Positions 16,985 to 25,502 of a stretch of 64,000 nt of DNA are shown piece after piece. The notes under the pieces were generated by a model. That model did not search any database. It was not told the DNA's origin and worked only from the letters and a program-made list of their open reading frames with translations. Location: NCBI GenBank assembly GCA_015055805.1, contig SVHN01000009.1, positions 1 through 64,000 of the forward strand, in the 5' to 3' direction. A program made the position numbers and the translations under genes. Source of the DNA: Clostridiales bacterium. Lineage in GTDB: Bacteria > Bacillota > Clostridia > Christensenellales > Borkfalkiaceae. Each line of letters begins with the position of its first letter. The first letter of the stretch is position 1.

Positions 16985-17416
16985 TTAAGATTTTGCTTTT
17001 ATAATCTCGTCTATACCTTCAAGGTATCCGTCAAAGCCTTTACCCGTTATGGTTATAAAAGCAAACTTTTTAACGAAAGATATTTGACGGAAGTCTTCCC
17101 TTTCGTCCACTTTGGAAATATGCACTTCCACCGTCGGAATATTGACCGACTTTAACGCGTCTAAAATTGCTACGCTGGTATGGGTATACGCGCCGGGGTT
17201 TATGACTATGCCGTCAAACTTATTGAACGCTTTTTGTATCTCGGTAACTATTGCGCCCTCATAGTTAGACTGATAGCACTTAACCTTTACGCCCTTTTCT
17301 TTTGCGTGGTTTTTAATAAGTTTTACAAGTGACTTATAGTCCTTATCCCCGTAAATATTCTTTTCCCTAATCCCTAGCATATTTAGATTAGGTCCGTTTA
17401 TAACCAAAATTTTCAT
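16985..17416 (-). CDS. aroQ: Type II 3-dehydroquinate dehydratase
   Basis: The 143-residue enzyme of the dodecameric type II family removes water from 3-dehydroquinate to give 3-dehydroshikimate. Family motifs are the N-terminal INGPNLNMLGIREKNIYG, including the catalytic Tyr of the flexible loop, then CYQSNYEGAIVTEIQ, NPGAYTHTSVAILDAL and VEVHISKVDEREDFR. It is the last gene of the operon and its start overlaps the stop of the AroE-AroK fusion gene by four bases (ATGA), so translation is coupled. Confidence 0.95.
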   Translation of the reverse strand: MKILVINGPNLNMLGIREKNIYGDKDYKSLVKLIKNHAKEKGVKVKCYQSNYEGAIVTEIQKAFNKFDGIVINPGAYTHTSVAILDALKSVNIPTVEVHISKVDEREDFRQISFVKKFAFITITGKGFDGYLEGIDEIIKAKS

Positions 17417-18642
17417 AATTTATCCATAACTCCTTTAACAGCGTTTTCCACGCTTTGGTTATTGTCGATAATAACGTCGGCAAACTGCGCGTATAAACCC
17501 TTTCTTTCGTCAAACAGTTTTTTAACCGTTTCTAAATCTTTGGATAGCGGTCTGCCGTCGGTAACGAGTTTTTCCACGTCACGCACTATCCAAAAGATTT
17601 TGCCGTTAGACTTTAACGGGTATAAATTCTCGCTATTTTTTATTATTCCGCCGCCGGTAGAAATAACCTTGCCCGTAAGTTTACCGACGTCTAGCAAAAC
17701 TTCGGTTTCTAGTTTACGGAAATATTCTTCACCGCTTGCGCTAAATATAGTCGGAATATCCCTACCGTCCCTTTTAACTATCTCTTGATCGGTATCAATG
17801 AGTTCTCTGCCGAGTTTTTCCGCAAGAAGTTTTCCGACCGTACTCTTTCCAGACCCCGGCATACCTATAAGCACGACGTTTTGTTTTTCTTTGCTCAGTT
17901 TATCGTATACCTTTTCAATAATACCGTCGTCGCACGGCTTAGACAAGAATTTTTCCATAGCGTATTTTGCCTGAGCAATCAGCATATAAAAACCGTTGAC
18001 GGCTTTTATTCCTTTTTGCTTTGCGCTCAAACAAAGTTTAGTACAAAAGGGATTATATATAACGTCTGCAACGCCTTCTAATTTATTAAAACCGTCTAAC
18101 GTTATGGGACTGTTATAGCTGTCGGGGAACATTCCGACGGGCGTAGTATTAATAATAATCTCGGTATCCGTACGGGTTTTCATATTCTCGTAATTAACTT
18201 CGCCCGAACGAGAAACGATAATTATTTCCTTTGCGCCCTCAGACTTTGCCACGGCGCGCGCCGTCTTGCTAGTTCCGCCGCTGCCGAGTATCATAACCGT
18301 CTTTTTGCAAAGGGTTATACCCGCCGTGGATAGCATATATTTCATACCTAAAAAATCGGTGTTATAGCCGACGAGTTTTCCGTTCTCGTTTACCACGGTG
18401 TTGACCGCGCCTATAAGCTGTGCGCTTTGGTCTATTTTATCAAGGTATTGTATTATATCCGTCTTGTAAGGTATAGTAACGTTAAAGCCTTTATACTTTT
18501 TACTTTGCACAAAATCTTTAAGCGCGTTGGGTTCAAGTTCCACTAAGTCGTAAGGATAAGAGCCTAACTCTGCGTGAATAATCTTAGAATAACTGTGCTT
18601 TAACGTTCTACCTATAAGAGCGAACCTTTCCTTTTCTTTCAT
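17413..18642 (-). CDS. Fused shikimate dehydrogenase and shikimate kinase
   Basis: The 409-residue fusion has two parts. Residues 1-255 are AroE: RTLKHSYSKIIHAEL, the GFNVTIPYK substrate-binding motif, and the NADP site LGSGGTSKTARAVA. Residues 262-409 are AroK: Walker A GMPGSGKST, DTDQEIVKRDG, STGGGII, and the lid DGRPLS. Together they convert 3-dehydroshikimate to shikimate and then to shikimate 3-phosphate. Separate genes are the rule; this fusion probably favours channelling. I chose ATG 18642, one base after the pheA stop, which fits the N-terminus of AroE proteins (KERFALIGRTL). An upstream ATG at 18660 is possible. The gene overlaps aroQ by four bases. Confidence 0.93.
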   Translation of the reverse strand: MKEKERFALIGRTLKHSYSKIIHAELGSYPYDLVELEPNALKDFVQSKKYKGFNVTIPYKTDIIQYLDKIDQSAQLIGAVNTVVNENGKLVGYNTDFLGMKYMLSTAGITLCKKTVMILGSGGTSKTARAVAKSEGAKEIIIVSRSGEVNYENMKTRTDTEIIINTTPVGMFPDSYNSPITLDGFNKLEGVADVIYNPFCTKLCLSAKQKGIKAVNGFYMLIAQAKYAMEKFLSKPCDDGIIEKVYDKLSKEKQNVVLIGMPGSGKSTVGKLLAEKLGRELIDTDQEIVKRDGRDIPTIFSASGEEYFRKLETEVLLDVGKLTGKVISTGGGIIKNSENLYPLKSNGKIFWIVRDVEKLVTDGRPLSKDLETVKKLFDERKGLYAQFADVIIDNNQSVENAVKGVMDKL

Positions 18643-18643
18643 A

Positions 18644-19789
18644 CTAAACGGTTTCCTCATACGCGCCAAGGAAAGTGAACTGTTCGGTAGAATTATCCAA
18701 CTCTATCAACAAGTTTTGAACGCTGTTTTTCTTTATGTCGCACTCAAAGTCGAAGTAGAACATAAACTCAAAGCTAGACCCGACTATGGGGCGTGATTCG
18801 AGTTTAGTAAGGTTTATCCCAAGGTTTGAAAACTTGGATAAAAGTTTGTTTAAGCTTCCGGGCGCGTTCTGTGGAAGTGTGGTCATAATACTTATCTTAT
18901 TCGCGCCTTTATAAAATTCCATATTCTTTGCGATAAGGATAAAGCGAGTGTAATTGTTGTCGCTATCCTGAACGTTGGTTTCTAATAGTTTTAAACCGTA
19001 AAGGTCTGCGCATTCCCTTGAAGAGATTGCAGCAATATCCTTTCTTCCGCTCTCGGCAAGCGTTTTTGCAGCGACAGCGGTGTTTGCTACCGCGGTAATC
19101 TTTACGCCCGGGAACTGCTCTAAATATTTTTTACATTGAGTAAGTGCCTGTTCGTGAGAAATTATCTCTTTTATATCACTCATTTTAGTGTCTTTATTAA
19201 CGACTAGATTGTGCGTAACCGATATGCGGATACTCTTTACAATATAGAACTTGTGTTCTTTCATTAAGTCGTAAACCTGATTTACAGACCCAGCCGAACT
19301 GTTTTCGATAGGCAGAACGCCGTACTTACAAAAACCTTTCTCAACCGCCTGAAACACGCCGTCGAAGTTTTTGAAATAGGTTATGTCTGCAAGCTCGAAC
19401 AATCTGTCCGTAGCAATGCCCGAATACGCGCCCGACACGCCTTGACACGCAACCTTTGCCTTGGGCGAAAACTCTAAGTCGCCTTTAAGGATTGCTTCTT
19501 TAATCTTTTCGCCTATTGCCGAGTGATACTCTGCGTTCATTGTTTGATAGGCTTTGCTCGTTTCAAATATACTTTCAAACACGCGCTTTAAGTATACCTG
19601 ATTGCCTTCGGAAACCTTATCAGTTACGCGAAGTAAAATCTTCTTTTCTCTGTCGGGATCGTTTACCGCCTTTCCGCTTTGCTTTTTAGCTTCCGATACC
19701 TGTCCGACAAGCTTCATTCTCTCTTCGTAAAGTTCTGCTATTTTATCGTCTATGGCGTCAATGCCCTGTCTTATTTTATCGAGATCCAT
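18644..19789 (-). CDS. pheA: Bifunctional chorismate mutase / prephenate dehydratase
   Basis: The 381-residue P-protein converts chorismate to prephenate and on to phenylpyruvate. Residues 1-85 form an AroQ-type chorismate mutase (IRQGIDAIDDKIAELYEERM, AEAKK-like SEAKKQSGKAV, PDREKKIL). Residues about 105-285 are the dehydratase, with VACQGVSGAYSGIATDRLF, LPIENSSAGSVNQVYDLM and the catalytic-loop stretch NYTRFILIA. Residues about 295-375 are a C-terminal ACT domain (PGSLNKLLSKFSNLGINLTKLESRP), which normally senses phenylalanine for feedback inhibition. AAAAGGAG is the ribosome binding site, 16 bp after aroC. The operon leader peptide rich in Phe codons fits control by the end product. Confidence 0.95.
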   Translation of the reverse strand: MDLDKIRQGIDAIDDKIAELYEERMKLVGQVSEAKKQSGKAVNDPDREKKILLRVTDKVSEGNQVYLKRVFESIFETSKAYQTMNAEYHSAIGEKIKEAILKGDLEFSPKAKVACQGVSGAYSGIATDRLFELADITYFKNFDGVFQAVEKGFCKYGVLPIENSSAGSVNQVYDLMKEHKFYIVKSIRISVTHNLVVNKDTKMSDIKEIISHEQALTQCKKYLEQFPGVKITAVANTAVAAKTLAESGRKDIAAISSRECADLYGLKLLETNVQDSDNNYTRFILIAKNMEFYKGANKISIMTTLPQNAPGSLNKLLSKFSNLGINLTKLESRPIVGSSFEFMFYFDFECDIKKNSVQNLLIELDNSTEQFTFLGAYEETV

Positions 19790-19805: not shown

Positions 19806-20888
19806 TTATATCAAGTCGTATACTGCTATTGCAGAAATTGCTTCTATTACGGGCACGGCTCTCGGCACTATACACGAATCGTGTCTGCCCTGTATTTTAA
19901 GTTTGACGTTTTCCTTTTTCACAAGGTCAACCGTGTCTTGTTCTTTGCCTATCGACGGCGTTGGCTTTATCGCCACTCTAAACGTTATAGGCATACCGTT
20001 TGACAGTCCGCCGTTTATACCGCCGTTGTGGTTGGTTTTAGTCTTTACTTTTCCGCTATCGTCGATAAAAAACGGATCGTTTGCTTTAGAGCCGCGCATA
20101 GTGGATATATCAAACCCCGTGCCGAACTCTATTCCTTTTACCGCAGGAACGGCAAACGCTAGTTTTGATATAACGCCCTCAATGCTGTCGAACATATATT
20201 CGCCTGCGCCTATCGGCATACCCGTTATAACGCACTCTATTACTCCGCCAACCGAATCTAAATCCATACGCGCGCTTTCAATCTCTTCAAGCATTGCCGC
20301 TTTATCTTGCGCGTCAAGCACGGGGAAGTCTTGGTCAACCTTTTTAAAATCAAACTTTTCTTGGTCTATATCGTTATAGCCTTTACCACAAATTCTGCCT
20401 ATTCTAGATATATAAGCGTTTATCTCTATGCCCTTTGACTGTAATTCTTGCTTTAATATTCCGCCCGCAATACACATCGGCGCGGTAAGTCTACCTGAAA
20501 ACTTTCCGCCACCCCTATGGTCAAACCCGTCGCCGTACTTTTGCCACGCCACGAAGTCTGCGTGCGACGGACGCGGCGTCTTTACGACTTTATCGTAGTC
20601 CTGACTTTTTTGTTCGGAATTTTTAATGACGGCTTTTAGTTCACCACTTATCGCACCGTCACTTTCGCCCTGAACGAAAATCACCTTATCCCCTTCAAGT
20701 CTTTTGGTTGAAAACGCCATGTTTTTAGGTTTTCTTCTGTCCATAAACCTTTGAAGTTTATCTTTATCAAACCGCACGCCGTCTAGCCCCTTAATAAAAA
20801 CGCCTATTTCGGGTGCGTGCGATGCGCCGTATATTTTCAGGTTAAGTTTTTTTCCGCAATATACAGATTGCTGATTGTCGTTATACAT
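19806..20888 (-). CDS. aroC: Chorismate synthase (divergent)
   Basis: The 360-residue enzyme forms chorismate from 5-enolpyruvylshikimate 3-phosphate with reduced FMN. The family is recognised by RRKPKN, TPRPSHADFVAWQKYG, DHRGGGKFSGRLTAPMC and the C-terminal RHDSCIVPRAVPVIEA. Several signatures differ from common bacterial AroC: the first motif GESHG reads GASHA, and the usual GGRSSARET reads GGKFSGRLT. The histidines expected in the active site are kept. ATG 20888 is preceded by GGAGGAAAGG at good spacing. The gene overlaps the end of aroA by eight bases. Its place in a complete pathway operon makes the assignment firm. Confidence 0.93.
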   Translation of the reverse strand: MYNDNQQSVYCGKKLNLKIYGASHAPEIGVFIKGLDGVRFDKDKLQRFMDRRKPKNMAFSTKRLEGDKVIFVQGESDGAISGELKAVIKNSEQKSQDYDKVVKTPRPSHADFVAWQKYGDGFDHRGGGKFSGRLTAPMCIAGGILKQELQSKGIEINAYISRIGRICGKGYNDIDQEKFDFKKVDQDFPVLDAQDKAAMLEEIESARMDLDSVGGVIECVITGMPIGAGEYMFDSIEGVISKLAFAVPAVKGIEFGTGFDISTMRGSKANDPFFIDDSGKVKTKTNHNGGINGGLSNGMPITFRVAIKPTPSIGKEQDTVDLVKKENVKLKIQGRHDSCIVPRAVPVIEAISAIAVYDLI

Positions 20889-22071
20889 TGACCTTTCCTC
20901 CAACCGACTGTAAATCTTTGAAAAAAGTGGGGTATGACTTTTCTACGGCTTGGGCGTTTTTAATAACGCTAGTGCCTTGACATACGGTTGCAAGCACCGC
21001 CGCCGACATAACTATTCTGTGGTCGTTATACGAATCAATCTCCCCTGCCTTAGGCAGCCCACCGTAAACTATAAGATTTCCGTCCGTATACTCTGCCTTT
21101 ATCCCGAACGCGTTTAGGGTTACTATGGTACTCTCTATCCTATCGCTTTCTTTTATTTTAAGCCTTGATACGTTCTTGATTACACTCGTTCCCTTTGCAT
21201 TAGCCGCAATAACCGCCGTTATCGGAACTAGGTCGGGGCAATCTTCGGCATCTATGGTAAACGCTTTTAGCCTGCTTTTATATACGGTTACCGTATCACC
21301 TGACCTTTCAATCTTTGCGCCTGCAAGTTTTAATATTTCAAGTATCGCTAAGTCGCCTTGAACGCTATCTAGGTTAAGCCCGAAAACTTCGGTTTTTCCG
21401 CTTAACGCGCCGAGCGCAACAAAGAACGCTGCGTTAGACCAGTCGCCCTCAGGCGTAACGTTTCCTTTGAATTTTTGTCCGCCTTTTATAAAATAGCCGC
21501 TATCCGTTTTTACAATTTTTATACCGTAACTAGACAGCACTTCCAAGGTAATATCGACGTATGGCGCGGAAGATAACGGGGTTAAAAGGGTTATCGTGCT
21601 GTCACCGTCTAGCGTTGCTAGTGCCATCAACAGTCCCGATATATATTGAGAACTTATATCACCGCGAATACGGTAATCCCCTGAGGTTAGTTTTCCGCTT
21701 AGATTTATTCTATCCGTCTTTTCCCAAACTGCGCCGTGACAAGACAACGCGCCGAGCAACTCGTCGTTTGGTCTATCCATAAGTTTTCCGTGTCCGATAA
21801 ACGTGTAGTTACCGCCACGCGCCGCCATAAGCGGCAACAAAAACCTTAAAGTAGAGCCCGATTCACCGCAGTCAAGTACGCTTTTTCCCGAAAGTACGGC
21901 TTTTAAGCACTCTTCAGTAGCCGTTATGTCCTTGGACGTAAAGCCTACGCAACCGGACGATACGGCGTTACCTGCAAGAAAATTGCAAATAGCAATTCTG
22001 TGGGCGTAAGACTTAGACGGTATTGCTTTTATCTTTCCGTTCACGTCTGATTTGTCTATTCGTGCAATCAT
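20881..22071 (-). CDS. aroA: 5-enolpyruvylshikimate-3-phosphate (EPSP) synthase
   Basis: The 396-residue enzyme joins shikimate 3-phosphate and phosphoenolpyruvate. Key motifs are PSKSYAHRIAICNFLAG with the catalytic Lys near residue 19, CGESGSTLRFLLPL, QYISGLLMAL, DWSNAAFFVALGAL, LKIKESDRIESTI and YNDHRIVMSAAVLA. The active-site loop reads CGESGSTLRF rather than GNAGT, which is more like class II enzymes. Tolerance to glyphosate cannot be read from this alone. The start overlaps the aroB stop by four bases (ATGA). Confidence 0.95.
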   Translation of the reverse strand: MIARIDKSDVNGKIKAIPSKSYAHRIAICNFLAGNAVSSGCVGFTSKDITATEECLKAVLSGKSVLDCGESGSTLRFLLPLMAARGGNYTFIGHGKLMDRPNDELLGALSCHGAVWEKTDRINLSGKLTSGDYRIRGDISSQYISGLLMALATLDGDSTITLLTPLSSAPYVDITLEVLSSYGIKIVKTDSGYFIKGGQKFKGNVTPEGDWSNAAFFVALGALSGKTEVFGLNLDSVQGDLAILEILKLAGAKIERSGDTVTVYKSRLKAFTIDAEDCPDLVPITAVIAANAKGTSVIKNVSRLKIKESDRIESTIVTLNAFGIKAEYTDGNLIVYGGLPKAGEIDSYNDHRIVMSAAVLATVCQGTSVIKNAQAVEKSYPTFFKDLQSVGGKVNV

Positions 22072-23117
22072 TTTAAATATCCTTTCAATTCGTCAGCCTT
22101 TACCTTTACTTCACGAACGTCACCGACGCCGTAAACCATCATTAAGGTTATAGTATCGCCGCTGCGCTTTTTATCGTTTTGTGCAGCATCGCAAATATCT
22201 TCAATAGAAAAGGGGCAGGGATTTTCGCCCACGCATTTTTTTACTACCGCATTGATTTTTTCTAAATTTGTTTTATCGATATATCCATGCGAATAAGAGT
22301 TATCAAGTATGATATCAAGCCCTATCGCAACAGCCCGTCCGTGCGAAAGGGTATATTCGCTTAGTTTTTCTATGCCGTGCGCAGGGGTATGACCGAGATT
22401 TAATAGTTTTCTTATTCCACCCTCGAACTCGTCTTTTTCTACCACTCGTCTTTTATAGTCAACGGCAAGATAAATAAGGTCTTTTATCTGGTATTTATCG
22501 CCTGATATAACGTCGAAAATATTTTGGTCTAGTACTGCGTACTTTGCCATTTCACCCATACCGTCGATATAGATTTCATTAGGCAAGCTGTCTAACGTGC
22601 ATACGTCGATTAAAACCAAGTTCGGCTGACAAAACGCGCCGACAAGGTTCTTTCCTTCTGGAAGATCAATCGCCGTCTTTCCACCGACGGAAGAATCTAT
22701 CTGTGAAAGTAAAGTCGTTGGAATTTGTATATATTTAATTCCGCGAAGATAGGTCGCCGCGGCAAAACCTGCCATATCCCCGACTACTCCGCCGCCGAGC
22801 GCAACCAAAGCGTCCGTACGCGTTAATTTATTCTCGGCTAAAAAGCTGAGTATCTTGCCGTAAGTATCAAGGTTTTTACTCGATTCGCCGTGTTGAAAAA
22901 CGAATTTTACCACGCCAAAACCGTTTTTCTTTAATGAGTCAACCACCGTTTTTGAATAGATTTTATCCACGGTATCGTCGGTAATTACGGCAACCTTGCA
23001 CGGTTTAACCACTTCTTTTATTAATTCGCCCGACCTACTAAGTATTGCGCTATCTATTATAACGTCATAACTTTTCGAGGCGCAAACGCGAACTCTTTTT
23101 GCGGTATCAGTTTTCAT
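22068..23117 (-). CDS. aroB: 3-dehydroquinate synthase
   Basis: The 349-residue NAD- and metal-dependent enzyme cyclises DAHP to 3-dehydroquinate. Motifs include HGESSKNLDTYGKILSFL, ALGGGVVGDMAGFAAATYLRG, PTTLLSQIDSSVGGKTAID, and the metal-binding LLNLGHTPAHGIEKL and LSHGRAVAIG. The usual NFGHTIGHAIE is NLGHTPAHGIE here, with both histidines kept. The start overlaps the tyrA stop by 11 bases. Confidence 0.95.
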   Translation of the reverse strand: MKTDTAKRVRVCASKSYDVIIDSAILSRSGELIKEVVKPCKVAVITDDTVDKIYSKTVVDSLKKNGFGVVKFVFQHGESSKNLDTYGKILSFLAENKLTRTDALVALGGGVVGDMAGFAAATYLRGIKYIQIPTTLLSQIDSSVGGKTAIDLPEGKNLVGAFCQPNLVLIDVCTLDSLPNEIYIDGMGEMAKYAVLDQNIFDVISGDKYQIKDLIYLAVDYKRRVVEKDEFEGGIRKLLNLGHTPAHGIEKLSEYTLSHGRAVAIGLDIILDNSYSHGYIDKTNLEKINAVVKKCVGENPCPFSIEDICDAAQNDKKRSGDTITLMMVYGVGDVREVKVKADELKGYLK

Positions 23118-23967
23118 TGTTCCAAGTCCTTCTCATCTTTTCCGATTCAAGTTTTCTTCTGTTGCCGTCGGCAAGCAGTTCTTTCATTTTGTCGGTGTCT
23201 TTATTCATAAGCGCGGATTTATATTCGGTTAGGCTGGCTATTATAGAATCAAGTTCACCCACTAAAAAGTCAGAGTTGTCAACGGTAAGTTGCGACCACA
23301 TTTCAGGCGAAAGCCTTGCAACTCTGGTCATATCCCTAAAACTTCCTGCTGAAAAGCCCATAAAACTTACCGCCGTGTCGCTCTTTATATAAGAACTAGA
23401 TACAAGGTGGGCAAGCTGAGAAGTAAACGCTATGATCCTGTCGTGATTTTCCGCCGTGGTGATAACTACGCTGCCGAACCCAAGCGATAAGGAATACGCT
23501 TTAAGGAAAGCAACTATTTTAAGTTCGGCTTTTACGGGTACTAATATCATTGACGCTTTATCGAATAGCGTTGCCGTAGAGTGGCTTACCCCCGAAAACT
23601 CACGCCCTGCCATAGGGTGCGCGCTTATAAAGTCTAGTTTTGGATATTTTTTGGCTAGCTCTTTCATCTGAGCTACTACTCTGCGTTTATTTCCGCAACA
23701 GTCCATAACTAAGCACCCGTCTTTAAGTAGCGGACAGTATTCTTCTAACGCCTTGGATAGCGATTCGGGATAGAGCGAAAAAATAACTAAGTCCATTTCC
23801 CCGACGTTATCTTTACTCAGTTCTTCGTGGTACGCTGAAAGCAGTTTGCCGTCAAGCATAGCTTTCTTACTGATATCAAACGCATAAACACGGTCTTCGG
23901 TTTTCTTGACTATCGCGCGTCCCATTGAGCCGCCGATAAGTCCTAATCCTATAATGCCTATCTTCAT
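23107..23967 (-). CDS. tyrA: Prephenate dehydrogenase
   Basis: The 286-residue enzyme oxidatively decarboxylates prephenate to 4-hydroxyphenylpyruvate for tyrosine synthesis. The N-terminal Rossmann fold begins IGIIGLGLIGGSMGRAI. The catalytic region has SAHPMAGREFSGVSHST, and the helical C-terminal domain ends in a charged segment. It lacks a C-terminal ACT domain, so feedback may act mainly on DAHP synthase and through the transcript leader. It begins 10 bp after aroF with only a weak AAGAAAAAG upstream of the ATG, so it probably relies on coupling to aroF translation. Confidence 0.93.
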   Translation of the reverse strand: MKIGIIGLGLIGGSMGRAIVKKTEDRVYAFDISKKAMLDGKLLSAYHEELSKDNVGEMDLVIFSLYPESLSKALEEYCPLLKDGCLVMDCCGNKRRVVAQMKELAKKYPKLDFISAHPMAGREFSGVSHSTATLFDKASMILVPVKAELKIVAFLKAYSLSLGFGSVVITTAENHDRIIAFTSQLAHLVSSSYIKSDTAVSFMGFSAGSFRDMTRVARLSPEMWSQLTVDNSDFLVGELDSIIASLTEYKSALMNKDTDKMKELLADGNRRKLESEKMRRTWNNEN

Positions 23968-23977
23968 ACTTTTTCTT

Positions 23978-24997
23978 TTATTTTCCGTCGTAGTCTTTTC
24001 CGACTATCGGTAACATGGTTTTAATCTTAGTCATAAGCGATGCAAACTGAGCGGGATTTAACGACTGCGCACCGTCACAAAGCGCGCGCTTTGGATCGTT
24101 GTGGACTTCAATTATAAGTCCGTCCGCGCCTGCGCCGACTGATGCAAGCGACATAGGCTCTACGTATTTTGCAATACCCGTTGAGTGGCTAGGATCTATG
24201 ATTATAGGAAGATGCGATTTATCTTTTAACGCAGGAACAGCCGAAAGGTCAAGCGTGTTTCTCGTCATAGTTTCAAACGTCCTTATGCCCCTTTCGCAAA
24301 GAATAACTTCAGAATCGCCTTCCGCCATAATGTATTCAGCACTCATTAAAAGTTCTTGTAAGGTGTTTGCTAGTCCACGCTTTAAGAGTATAGGTTTACC
24401 CGTCTTTCCAACTTCCTTTAAGAGTTCAAAGTTCTGCATATTTCTTGCACCGATCTGAATAACGTCAACGTCTTTGAATAAATCTAAGTGGCTCACGCTT
24501 AAAAGTTCTGTAACGATAGGAAGTCCCGTTTCCTTTTTGGCTTTAAGTAAAAGTTCAATACCCGTATCTTTAAGACCTTGGAAAGCGTAAGGCGAAGTTC
24601 TAGGCTTGAACGCGCCGCCCCTAAGCATGGTTGCGCCGGCAGCCTTAACAGCCTCGGCAACTTCAATTATTTGCGCCTCTGACTCTACCGAGCAAGGCCC
24701 TGCGATAACGTGGAAGTTATTCCCGCCAAATTTATGCCCTGCAATATTTACTATAGTATCTTCAGGGTGAAATTTTCTGTTAGCGTTTTTATAAGGCTCT
24801 TGAACACGCTGAACTTTTTCAACGATATCAAGGCTGGATATAAGGTCAATATCAACCTTACTCGTATCACCCACAAGACCCAAAACGGTAGAAATTTCAC
24901 CACGGCTAACGTGTACGCCGAGCCCAAGTTCTTTGACCCAATCAATAAGATTATCAAATTGACTTTGTTCACAGGTGTTTTTAACTACGATTATCAT
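23978..24997 (-). CDS. aroF: 3-deoxy-7-phosphoheptulonate (DAHP) synthase, type I-beta with N-terminal regulatory domain
   Basis: The 339-residue first enzyme of the shikimate pathway condenses phosphoenolpyruvate and erythrose 4-phosphate. Residues 1-70 form a ferredoxin-like domain as in the Thermotoga enzyme, where it mediates tyrosine inhibition. The barrel starts at HVIAGPCSVES and has MLRGGAFKPRTSPYAFQG, GARNMQNFELL, KPILLKRG, CERGIRTFE and DPSHSTG with the metal and substrate ligands. It is the first gene of the eight-gene aromatic operon, about 390 bp downstream of the leader peptide stop and 320 bp from the attenuator hairpin. Two dispersed repeats fill most of that gap. Confidence 0.95.
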   Translation of the reverse strand: MIIVVKNTCEQSQFDNLIDWVKELGLGVHVSRGEISTVLGLVGDTSKVDIDLISSLDIVEKVQRVQEPYKNANRKFHPEDTIVNIAGHKFGGNNFHVIAGPCSVESEAQIIEVAEAVKAAGATMLRGGAFKPRTSPYAFQGLKDTGIELLLKAKKETGLPIVTELLSVSHLDLFKDVDVIQIGARNMQNFELLKEVGKTGKPILLKRGLANTLQELLMSAEYIMAEGDSEVILCERGIRTFETMTRNTLDLSAVPALKDKSHLPIIIDPSHSTGIAKYVEPMSLASVGAGADGLIIEVHNDPKRALCDGAQSLNPAQFASLMTKIKTMLPIVGKDYDGK

Positions 24998-25065
24998 AAA
25001 TTCATCTCCGATAAATTGTTTTTTTATTTATAGGTTTAATTTTATATCAAGCGGTTTGATATTTT

Positions 25066-25186
25066 ATTACGTTATAAACAAGCAGTTCAAGGCTCGCAAA
25101 AGGGTTTGGACTGAGTTGACCGTCTGGTCACGAAGGTCAAATCCCTTTTTGCAGTAAACGAAGAAATGCGAAGTTTAGAACGTATT
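25066..25186. repeat. MITE-like palindromic element in the aro leader, copy 1
   Basis: This 121-bp element has terminal inverted repeats ATTACGTTATAAAC and GTTTAGAACGTATT (12 of 14 paired). The core reads CAAGGCTCG, AAAAGGGTTTGGACTGAG, a hairpin around TTGACC..GGTCACGAAGGTCAA, and ATCCCTTTTTGCAGTAAACG. It is nearly identical to the core at 11216-11338. It lies in the transcribed leader between the attenuator and aroF. Confidence 0.75.
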
Positions 25187-25198
25187 AAAAAATTTAAG

Positions 25199-25316
25199 GC
25201 GTTATAAACGAGTTAGGCTAGGCTCGAAAAGTGGGACGGACTCGATTGGCCTTGTTGGTCATTCGAGGTCGTACTGCTTTTCAGCAAACGACGCATAACG
25301 AAGTTTAGAACGTATT
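25199..25316. repeat. MITE-like palindromic element in the aro leader, copy 2
   Basis: This tandem relative of the element at 25066-25186 has left end GCGTTATAAAC and right end GTTTAGAACGTATT, identical to the right end of copy 1. The centre differs (GGACTCGATTGGCC, TTGTTGGTCA, TTCGAGGTCG) but keeps base pairing, as expected for compensatory change in a folded element. Its right end abuts the T run of the attenuator (25317-25322). Confidence 0.75.
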
Positions 25317-25348
25317 AAAAAAGGCTTTGTAGCGATTACTACAAAGCC
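25317..25348 (-). terminator. Transcription attenuator of the aromatic operon
   Basis: On the minus strand GGCTTTGTAG and CTACAAAGCC form a 10-bp stem with a 6-base loop, followed by TTTTTT. It lies 41 bases after the stop codon of the Tyr/Phe-rich leader peptide. The sequence TAGTAAT in the stem-loop region can pair with ATTACTA just after the leader stop, which gives a possible competing structure. This is inferred, not folded by program. Confidence 0.82.
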
Positions 25349-25388
25349 CGTTTCTTTCTTCAAGCGAAAACAATCCGTATAGTAATTA

Positions 25389-25448
25389 CTAACGAGATAT
25401 TGAAAACGAGGTATTAAAGTAAAAATAAAAGTAACGAATTGATTTCAT
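25389..25448 (-). CDS. Tyr/Phe-rich leader peptide of the aromatic operon (attenuation)
   Basis: A 19-codon open frame encodes MKSIRYFYFYFNTSFSISR and ends in TAG. Codons 6-11 alternate Tyr and Phe, and a seventh aromatic residue (Phe) is at codon 15. AGGAG lies six bases before the ATG, and a consensus promoter is 25 bp upstream. A terminator hairpin with a T run follows 41 bases after the stop. This is the layout of the enteric phe and trp attenuators: stalling on Tyr or Phe codons when charged tRNA is scarce would prevent the terminator and allow the aro-phe-tyr operon to be read. It is too short to be found by ordinary gene callers. Confidence 0.88.
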   Translation of the reverse strand: MKSIRYFYFYFNTSFSISR

Positions 25449-25472
25449 AGACTACTCCTAAAAAGTAATTTT

Positions 25473-25502
25473 ATTATACTCTCGTAAAACACGGAGTGTC
25501 AA
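25473..25502 (-). promoter_or_regulatory. Consensus sigma-A promoter of the aromatic operon
   Basis: On the minus strand a perfect TTGACA (25502-25497) and a perfect TATAAT (25478-25473) are separated by 18 bp. Transcription would start about 15-20 bases before the ribosome binding site of the leader peptide. Confidence 0.9.

Follow-up and report, generated by a model that had tools for sequence, protein, structure and literature searches.

How is the expression of an operon for the synthesis of phenylalanine and tyrosine set in a clostridial host? The question is raised by a stretch of DNA of 64,000 nucleotides from a Clostridiales bacterium (contig SVHN01000009.1), which is referred to below as the window. 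In a preliminary description, the region between positions 25,317 and 25,502 of the window was regarded as a leader-peptide attenuator located ahead of the aromatic operon. The following features were found in this region and next to it:

25473..25502, minus strand: sigma-A promoter TTGACA-18-TATAAT, 12/12 consensus matches (TTGACA at 25502–25497, TATAAT at 25478–25473, spacer of 18 nt)
25455..25459, minus strand: leader ribosome-binding site AGGAG (sequence)
25389..25448, minus strand: leader peptide frame MKSIRYFYFYFNTSFSISR of 19 codons with the stop TAG (ATG at 25448–25446, TAG at 25391–25389; sequence and relatives)
25416..25433, minus strand: predicted control codons Tyr6–Phe11, TAC TTT TAT TTT TAC TTT (codon comparison, 15 upstreams)
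25388..25394, minus strand: segment 1, putative partner of segment 2 across the leader stop, CGUUAGU / ACUA-u-ACG (covariation and fold)
25375..25386, minus strand: segment 2, putative upstream arm of the antiterminator, AUUACUAUACGG (complementarity and fold)
25364..25371, minus strand: T-rich element GUUUUCGC, present as GUUUUUGC in many relatives (pairing search)
25335..25348, minus strand: segment 3, the 5' arm of the terminator and putative downstream arm of the antiterminator (covariation, complementarity and fold)
25323..25332, minus strand: segment 4, the 3' arm of the terminator (covariation)
25317..25322, minus strand: six-T tract of the intrinsic terminator (sequence and fold)
25060..25316, minus strand: two copies of a dispersed repeat in the interval between the terminator and aroF (genome search)

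The promoter had been called perfect in the preliminary description, which agrees with its consensus score, and both AGGAG and the 19-codon frame rich in tyrosine and phenylalanine were present where they had been placed. The operon behind the leader was expected to make phenylalanine and tyrosine, and eight frames on the same strand matched the corresponding enzymes:

23978..24997, minus strand: aroF, DAHP synthase (protein family match)
23107..23967, minus strand: tyrA, prephenate dehydrogenase (Pfam cut-off passed, below the NCBIfam cut-off)
22068..23117, minus strand: aroB (protein family match)
20881..22071, minus strand: aroA (protein family match)
19806..20903, minus strand: aroC (protein family match)
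18644..19789, minus strand: pheA, chorismate mutase-prephenate dehydratase (protein family match)
17413..18669, minus strand: aroE-aroK fusion (Pfam cut-offs passed, below the NCBIfam cut-offs)
16985..17416, minus strand: aroQ, type II dehydroquinase (protein family match)

These genes, in the order aroF-tyrA-aroB-aroA-aroC-pheA-aroEK-aroQ, lie close to each other or overlap, begin about 320 bases past the terminator and comprise the complete shikimate route with both the tyrosine and the phenylalanine branch. Note that shikimate dehydrogenase and shikimate kinase are encoded in a single frame of 418 residues. The repeat located between the terminator and aroF is about 125 bases long, its two copies are 130 bases apart and 21 further matches, many of them partial, were found in the genome. 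The bases ahead of seven repeat copies were inspected by eye and with one fold each, and no clear terminator was found there. Since the distance between leader and aroF varies from 70 to 539 bases across the genus and the repeat is dispersed in the genome, the repeats were rejected as a part of the switch and are considered dispensable for it.

The upstream regions of aroF were compared in chosen relatives (61 genomes searched, 51 with a match, where the upstreams of G013, G040 and G047 and second aroF copies were left out) and in the genus (38 of 44 genomes had an aroF match), and further stretches were added. A frame was accepted when it had 8–60 codons, a ribosome-binding site and at least seven F, Y or W per 12 residues. 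Such a strict frame was found within 600 bases in 82 of the 130 upstreams, the window counted, and was not found within this distance in 48; the reverse strand gave 1/130 and dinucleotide shuffles 3/2600. Among named contigs, for which the best 80 of 594 places were used, the frame was present within 600 bases of aroF in 47 of 78 loci, and 600-base control windows contained it neither farther upstream (0/130) nor downstream (0/151). Because of these differences, the leader frame is, as judged by comparison of sequences, not a product of chance. The misses are partly an effect of the thresholds, since the frame of L009 lies beyond 600 bases and several loci score 5 or 6; when the search was widened to 900 bases, 84 upstreams had a frame.

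A hand tally for the genus gave the strict frame in 31 of the 38 genomes with an aroF match, including that of the window. In two of the seven others the aromatic frame is weaker, and three lack one; another offers only 246 upstream bases and the last was left out. A sample of the phylum, in which 135 of 149 genomes had a match, yielded the frame in 10 of the 29 loci scanned, which were taken from the best matches and leave out 105 of the 135, the gene start being poorly placed in five. Named relatives that carry the leader include Angelakisella massiliensis (L049) and Oscillibacter valericigenes (L097). Aromatic leader frames before aroF were also seen in two contigs labelled as other phyla, Lentisphaerae SIG87 (L059) and Treponema RGIG8218 (L073); either horizontal transfer of the operon together with the attenuator or mislabelled bins may account for them.

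Two sets of similar loci were analyzed at the level of single positions. They were delimited by eye from the leader and terminator sequences, without a tree: group A consists of the window and its 14 nearest upstreams, and group B of 14 other members of the genus together with L023, L040 and L052. Both promoter hexamers, TTGACA and TATAAT, were found upstream of the leader in all 15 group A upstreams, the window counted. In the YFYFYF block of group A, a single one of 180 cells at first and second codon positions differs (a change from Phe to Tyr in L007), and at each of the three Tyr codons TAC and TAT are about equally frequent. The leaders of L003, L005, L010 and L015 terminate sooner, and the nucleotides beyond the block, approximately AUAUCNCGUUAGUAAUUACUAUACGG, are mostly kept. 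The conservation of the block with synonymous drift and the retention of these later nucleotides therefore indicate that the control codons are constrained as coding sequence and the part beyond them as RNA. Thus, the relatives' upstreams retain the frame and its Tyr and Phe codons with synonymous changes, both in the large set and in the 15 closest sequences, which was the comparison proposed in the preliminary description. The ribosome-binding site and the synonymous drift suggest that the leader is translated, and a short frame in which codons for the products of the operon are clustered in runs is what is expected of an attenuator. In addition, the Phe control codons of group A are TTT in all cells, with no TTC, while the Tyr codons drift; decoding speed or a need for U-rich, unstructured RNA are possible reasons.

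Between the frame and the first gene, an intrinsic terminator was found, as is also expected of an attenuator. Its stem GGCUUUGUAG/CUACAAAGCC (25348–25339 / 25332–25323) is followed by six T at 25322–25317 and the fold has an energy of -17.7 kcal/mol (z = -6.15), so that the 10-bp hairpin with six T of the preliminary description was recovered as such. The pairing of segments 3 and 4 was retained in 99.3% of the cells in group A and in 94.7% in group B, with changes on both sides in 6 of 10 pairs in either group. Of the 84 frames found within 900 bases, 83 were assigned a T-tract hairpin by the search; 80 of the hairpins reached -8 kcal/mol or better and, after one correction by hand, 81 loci were available.

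A further hairpin, which goes beyond the layout described earlier, is formed by segments 1 and 2 (CGUUAGU with ACUAuACG) and spans the leader stop. In group A, changes on both sides were found in 2 of its 7 pairs, a result matched by 4 of 500 shuffles, and in the window the hairpin taken alone is weak (-2.0 kcal/mol). In group B, its covariation did not exceed that of the shuffles, and covariation support for the hairpin in this group was set aside for this reason.

The preliminary description had proposed a possible antiterminator in which ATTACTA after the leader stop pairs with TAGTAAT in the terminator. Both motifs are present and the pairing is longer than proposed, extending to AUUACUAUA/UGUAGUAAU and two more pairs, so that the partners in the window are AUUACUAUACGG and CUUUGUAGUAAU; however, its energy in the window alone lies within the range of shuffled sequences (p = 0.18). 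When the RNA of the window is cut after segment 3, it folds with segments 2 and 3 paired at -10.8 kcal/mol (z = -1.1, 25 of 200 shuffles being equally good), and the complete RNA folds into the 1:2 and 3:4 hairpins.

Over the set of loci, the segment after the leader was complementary to the 5' arm of the terminator at p < 0.05 in 31 of 80 loci and at p < 0.01 in 13 of 80 (shuffle test), while 49 of the 80 missed p < 0.05; the mean energy was -12.9 kcal/mol versus -9.2 kcal/mol for shuffled sequences. The same test with the 3' arm served as a control and gave 5/80 at p < 0.05 and 0/80 at p < 0.01, and pairing of segment 2 with this arm was rejected as being near chance. The partner sequences differ between loci, being AUAUCGGUUAUU/AAUGACCGAUAU in group B, AGCGGUCGUU/AGCGACCGU in L040 and GGCUCC/GGAGCU in L045. 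In group B, segments 2 and 3 covary (score matched by 1 of 500 shuffles), with 85.7% of the cells paired (2/500 shuffles) and changes on both sides (32/500 shuffles). In group A, 95.0% of the cells are paired and no covariation was found because segment 2 hardly varies; none of the 14 group A loci tested for complementarity to the 5' arm reached p < 0.05. Thus, an antiterminator that pairs with the 5' arm of the terminator, another feature expected of an attenuator, is found across the relatives but is not significant in the window alone.

Folding with a ribosome placed on the leader had been suggested as a further check. In a thermodynamic, not kinetic, model of 81 loci, the 5' arm of the terminator was held by upstream sequence with a mean probability of 0.64 when the ribosome stood on the aromatic codons and 0.49 when it stood at the stop; with shuffled linkers, the same model gave 0.53 and 0.51. 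The difference between the stalled and the stop position was 0.15 in the real sequences and 0.02 in the shuffled ones (Wilcoxon 7e-6, 81 loci). For the window, the thermodynamic values were 0.68 with the ribosome stalled, 0.50 at the stop and 0.72 without a ribosome. Of the 12 bases in segment 2, the footprint modelled at the stop leaves 3 exposed. In this model, the computed shift was seen over the whole set and in the window; the order of the two positions was reversed in several loci, e.g., L003, L005 and L098.

All these characteristics allow us to assume that a ribosome-mediated transcription attenuator very probably sets the expression of the phenylalanine and tyrosine operon, and the leader-peptide attenuator suggested in the preliminary description is in this respect supported by the conserved frame, the synonymous codon drift and the competing folds across relatives. 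Sequence and comparison argue for the frame, the control residues with their drift, the terminator, the 2:3 pairing across relatives and the fit with ribosome position; translation, co-transcriptional folding and the dependence on the supply of Phe and Tyr are what we infer from them. According to this model, a ribosome would trail RNA polymerase along the leader frame. With ample charged tRNA-Tyr and tRNA-Phe, it would reach the TAG at 25391 and cover segment 1 together with the greater part of segment 2; the 3:4 hairpin would then form and transcription would stop at the six U. If charged tRNA-Tyr or tRNA-Phe were scarce, the ribosome would stall at codons 6–11, which would leave segment 2 (AUUACUAUACGG) free to pair with segment 3 (CUUUGUAGUAAU), so that no terminator would form and the operon would be read. 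In RNA without translation, the 1:2 hairpin would form and termination would follow.

One more pairing was considered. In a part of the genus and in near relatives, the leader ribosome-binding site (GGAGCAAAAAC and similar) is complementary to the conserved element GUUUUUGC located between segments 2 and 3. This pairing reached p < 0.05 against shuffles in 5 of 15 loci of group A, in 8 of 21 loci of group B and near relatives, and in 4 of 47 loci elsewhere. Long pairings were found in the single loci L014, L018, L019 and L024 and, in one version only, in L023; in the window, the pairing is weak (-3.8 kcal/mol). The first version of a permutation test, in which some elements had been wrongly picked, gave 0.02 for group A, 0.41 for group B and 0.02 for both, and the second version gave 0.25 for group A, 0.009 for group B and 0.0016 for the rest. 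As a general feature, the pairing was set aside, being uneven between groups, weak in the window and judged differently by the two permutation tests. As a lead, it could hide the leader ribosome-binding site in some relatives; in the enteric trp leader, translation of the leader is controlled by such a pairing.

Three other explanations of the locus were weighed. The nascent peptide itself could sense free Phe or Tyr and arrest the ribosome in a TnaC-like manner, in place of a stall caused by scarce charged tRNA. In known examples, aromatic residues favour arrest, and the peptide end ...FGYYFKKPY is conserved in group B. However, the specificity of arrest peptides normally lies in a few residues at fixed positions, and across clades only the aromatic run of these leaders is kept, while its position, length and order and the C-termini vary; moreover, in group B the CC conserved at the PY/PC end also pairs in the 1:2 hairpin, where the two pairs are kept in 17/17 and 16/17 sequences. 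This explanation is considered improbable.

It was also considered that the palindrome TAGTAATTACTA past the leader could serve a repressor as its operator, at the level of DNA or RNA, with the frame being incidental. The 12 bases of the palindrome are matched exactly in 9 of 15 group A linkers and with at most one mismatch in 14 of 15, the arms and loop of the group A terminators contain a similar run, and the genome encodes a TrpR-family protein two genes upstream of hisG. However, the palindrome was found within two mismatches in 0 of the 68 other linkers, though these keep the frame and the terminator and many of them carry a new complementary pair, and a repressor needs no synonymous drift in Tyr codons; an operator at this place is thus highly improbable. 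Scarcely credible is the simplest explanation, a constitutive partial terminator which merely lowers expression, the frame being a chance AT-rich run. It is true that the leader and the linker are AT-rich and that the 2:3 energy in the window is inside the shuffled range, but the 3/2600 frames in the AT-preserving shuffles, the 0/281 in the control windows and the synonymous drift speak against it.

If the attenuator reading is adopted, the choice of control codons can be compared with the biosynthetic capacity of the host. The leader contains Tyr and Phe codons and no Trp codons. In the genome of the window (G000, 95.72% complete), no gene of the Chorismate_bind type (TrpE, PabB and kin) was found by a search that was positive in 14 of 14 control genomes, and such a gene was present in 0 of the 21 genomes of the genus searched, including this one; the genome-wide search for chorismate outlets covered the Chorismate_bind type only. 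Despite a complete shikimate route, the host is thus likely unable to make tryptophan (and p-aminobenzoate) from chorismate, and the absence of a Chorismate_bind gene matches a leader without Trp codons. Among 79 genomes with a leader, a Trp codon was found in the leader of 8 of 18 with a Chorismate_bind gene versus 3 of 61 without (Fisher 1.8e-4), and Trp in or beside the aromatic block in 8 of 18 versus 1 of 61, in a comparison of leaders made by hand and uncorrected for kinship, with many incomplete genomes and three of the eight from one family. A joint reading can be put forward tentatively, and we regard it as somewhat doubtful: the control codons of clostridial aroF attenuators may have been retuned to the chorismate products of the host, and UUUUUGC in the genus may act as a second switch that masks the leader ribosome-binding site. 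As parts of this same tentative reading, Tyr and Phe would be used alone where TrpE-type genes are missing and Trp would often be added where they are present, and UUUUUGC between segments 2 and 3 would let a terminated or idle transcript block leader translation.

T-boxes, which sense tRNA charging, are present in the same genome. Seven T-box matches were found there, four of them above the curated score, and one is located directly upstream of pheS (L117/L180, contig C15), with the specifier UUC as read from the alignment. With a T-box at pheS and the leader attenuator, the same cell would therefore sense the charging of Phe-tRNA in two ways; the T-box would serve the synthetase and the translating ribosome the synthesis of phenylalanine. 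Both devices would be tied to tRNA charging, but at the locus described here the sensing would go through the translating ribosome. The TrpR-family gene (PF01371) mentioned above is separated from hisG by a gene that, by its position, is a putative hisZ, and it resembles the HisR of PMC9413887.

Searched against Rfam 15 at the gathering score, neither the window nor any of 12 loci, of which L002 is the window's own region, matched a cis-regulatory family, and the T-box model RF00230 had no match at this locus. Among the open-access papers searched, none was recognised as describing a clostridial leader attenuator for aroF or for Phe/Tyr. Because there is neither an Rfam match nor a clostridial precedent in this search, the clostridial aroF attenuator is taken as a new, widespread case of a known type. 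These results suggest that translation-coupled attenuation, which is best known in enterics, guards the entry to aromatic synthesis in many Clostridia, and it stands beside T-boxes in one genome, where pheS carries one. In addition, the loci provide natural versions of one switch, rebuilt with different sequences, on which the dependence of leader codons on host biosynthetic capacity is testable, and they point to a gap in the libraries of RNA families.

In the enteric pheL/pheA and trpL leaders, the control codons specify the product amino acids, the stop adjoins segments 1 and 2, an antiterminator is formed by segments 2 and 3, and a terminator by segments 3 and 4. The leader described here is similar in its product control codons, in the position of the stop by segments 1 and 2, in the competition of 2:3 with 3:4 and in the biosynthetic operon downstream. 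Unlike the enteric leaders, it has alternating Tyr and Phe codons, a clostridial host and no Rfam leader match. The attenuation mechanism in general is treated in PMC1183508.

The assumption of the preliminary description that leader-peptide attenuators are unusual in Bacillota should be revised, since his, ilv and Acholeplasma aroF cases are proposed or described in PMC2965389, PMC9413887, PMC5794164 and PMC8632094, and the present type is common before clostridial aroF in the loci compared here. According to PMC9413887 and PMC2965389, his leader peptides have been proposed for the Bacillus cereus group, Peptostreptococcaceae and Erysipelotrichales; as proposed, they too are classical amino-acid leader attenuators, and they differ in the amino acid and the operon. 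The Leu/Ile leader attenuator of the S. aureus ilv operon has experimental support, and in its antiterminator fold the terminator stem-loop remains intact and the U-tail pairs (PMC5794164). It is also a leader-peptide attenuator of Firmicutes, with other amino acids and another antiterminator fold. The closest case by gene is uORFC-13-1, a proposed uORF attenuator with at least one Phe codon and a terminator before aroF of Acholeplasma, reported from 24 sequences that belong only to Acholeplasma and to environmental sequences of unknown origin (PMC8632094). Like the leader of the window, uORFC-13-1 combines a uORF containing a Phe codon with a terminator upstream of aroF; unlike it, the clostridial leaders have runs of both Tyr and Phe codons, occur in many Clostridia and have their 2:3 and 3:4 pairings tested.
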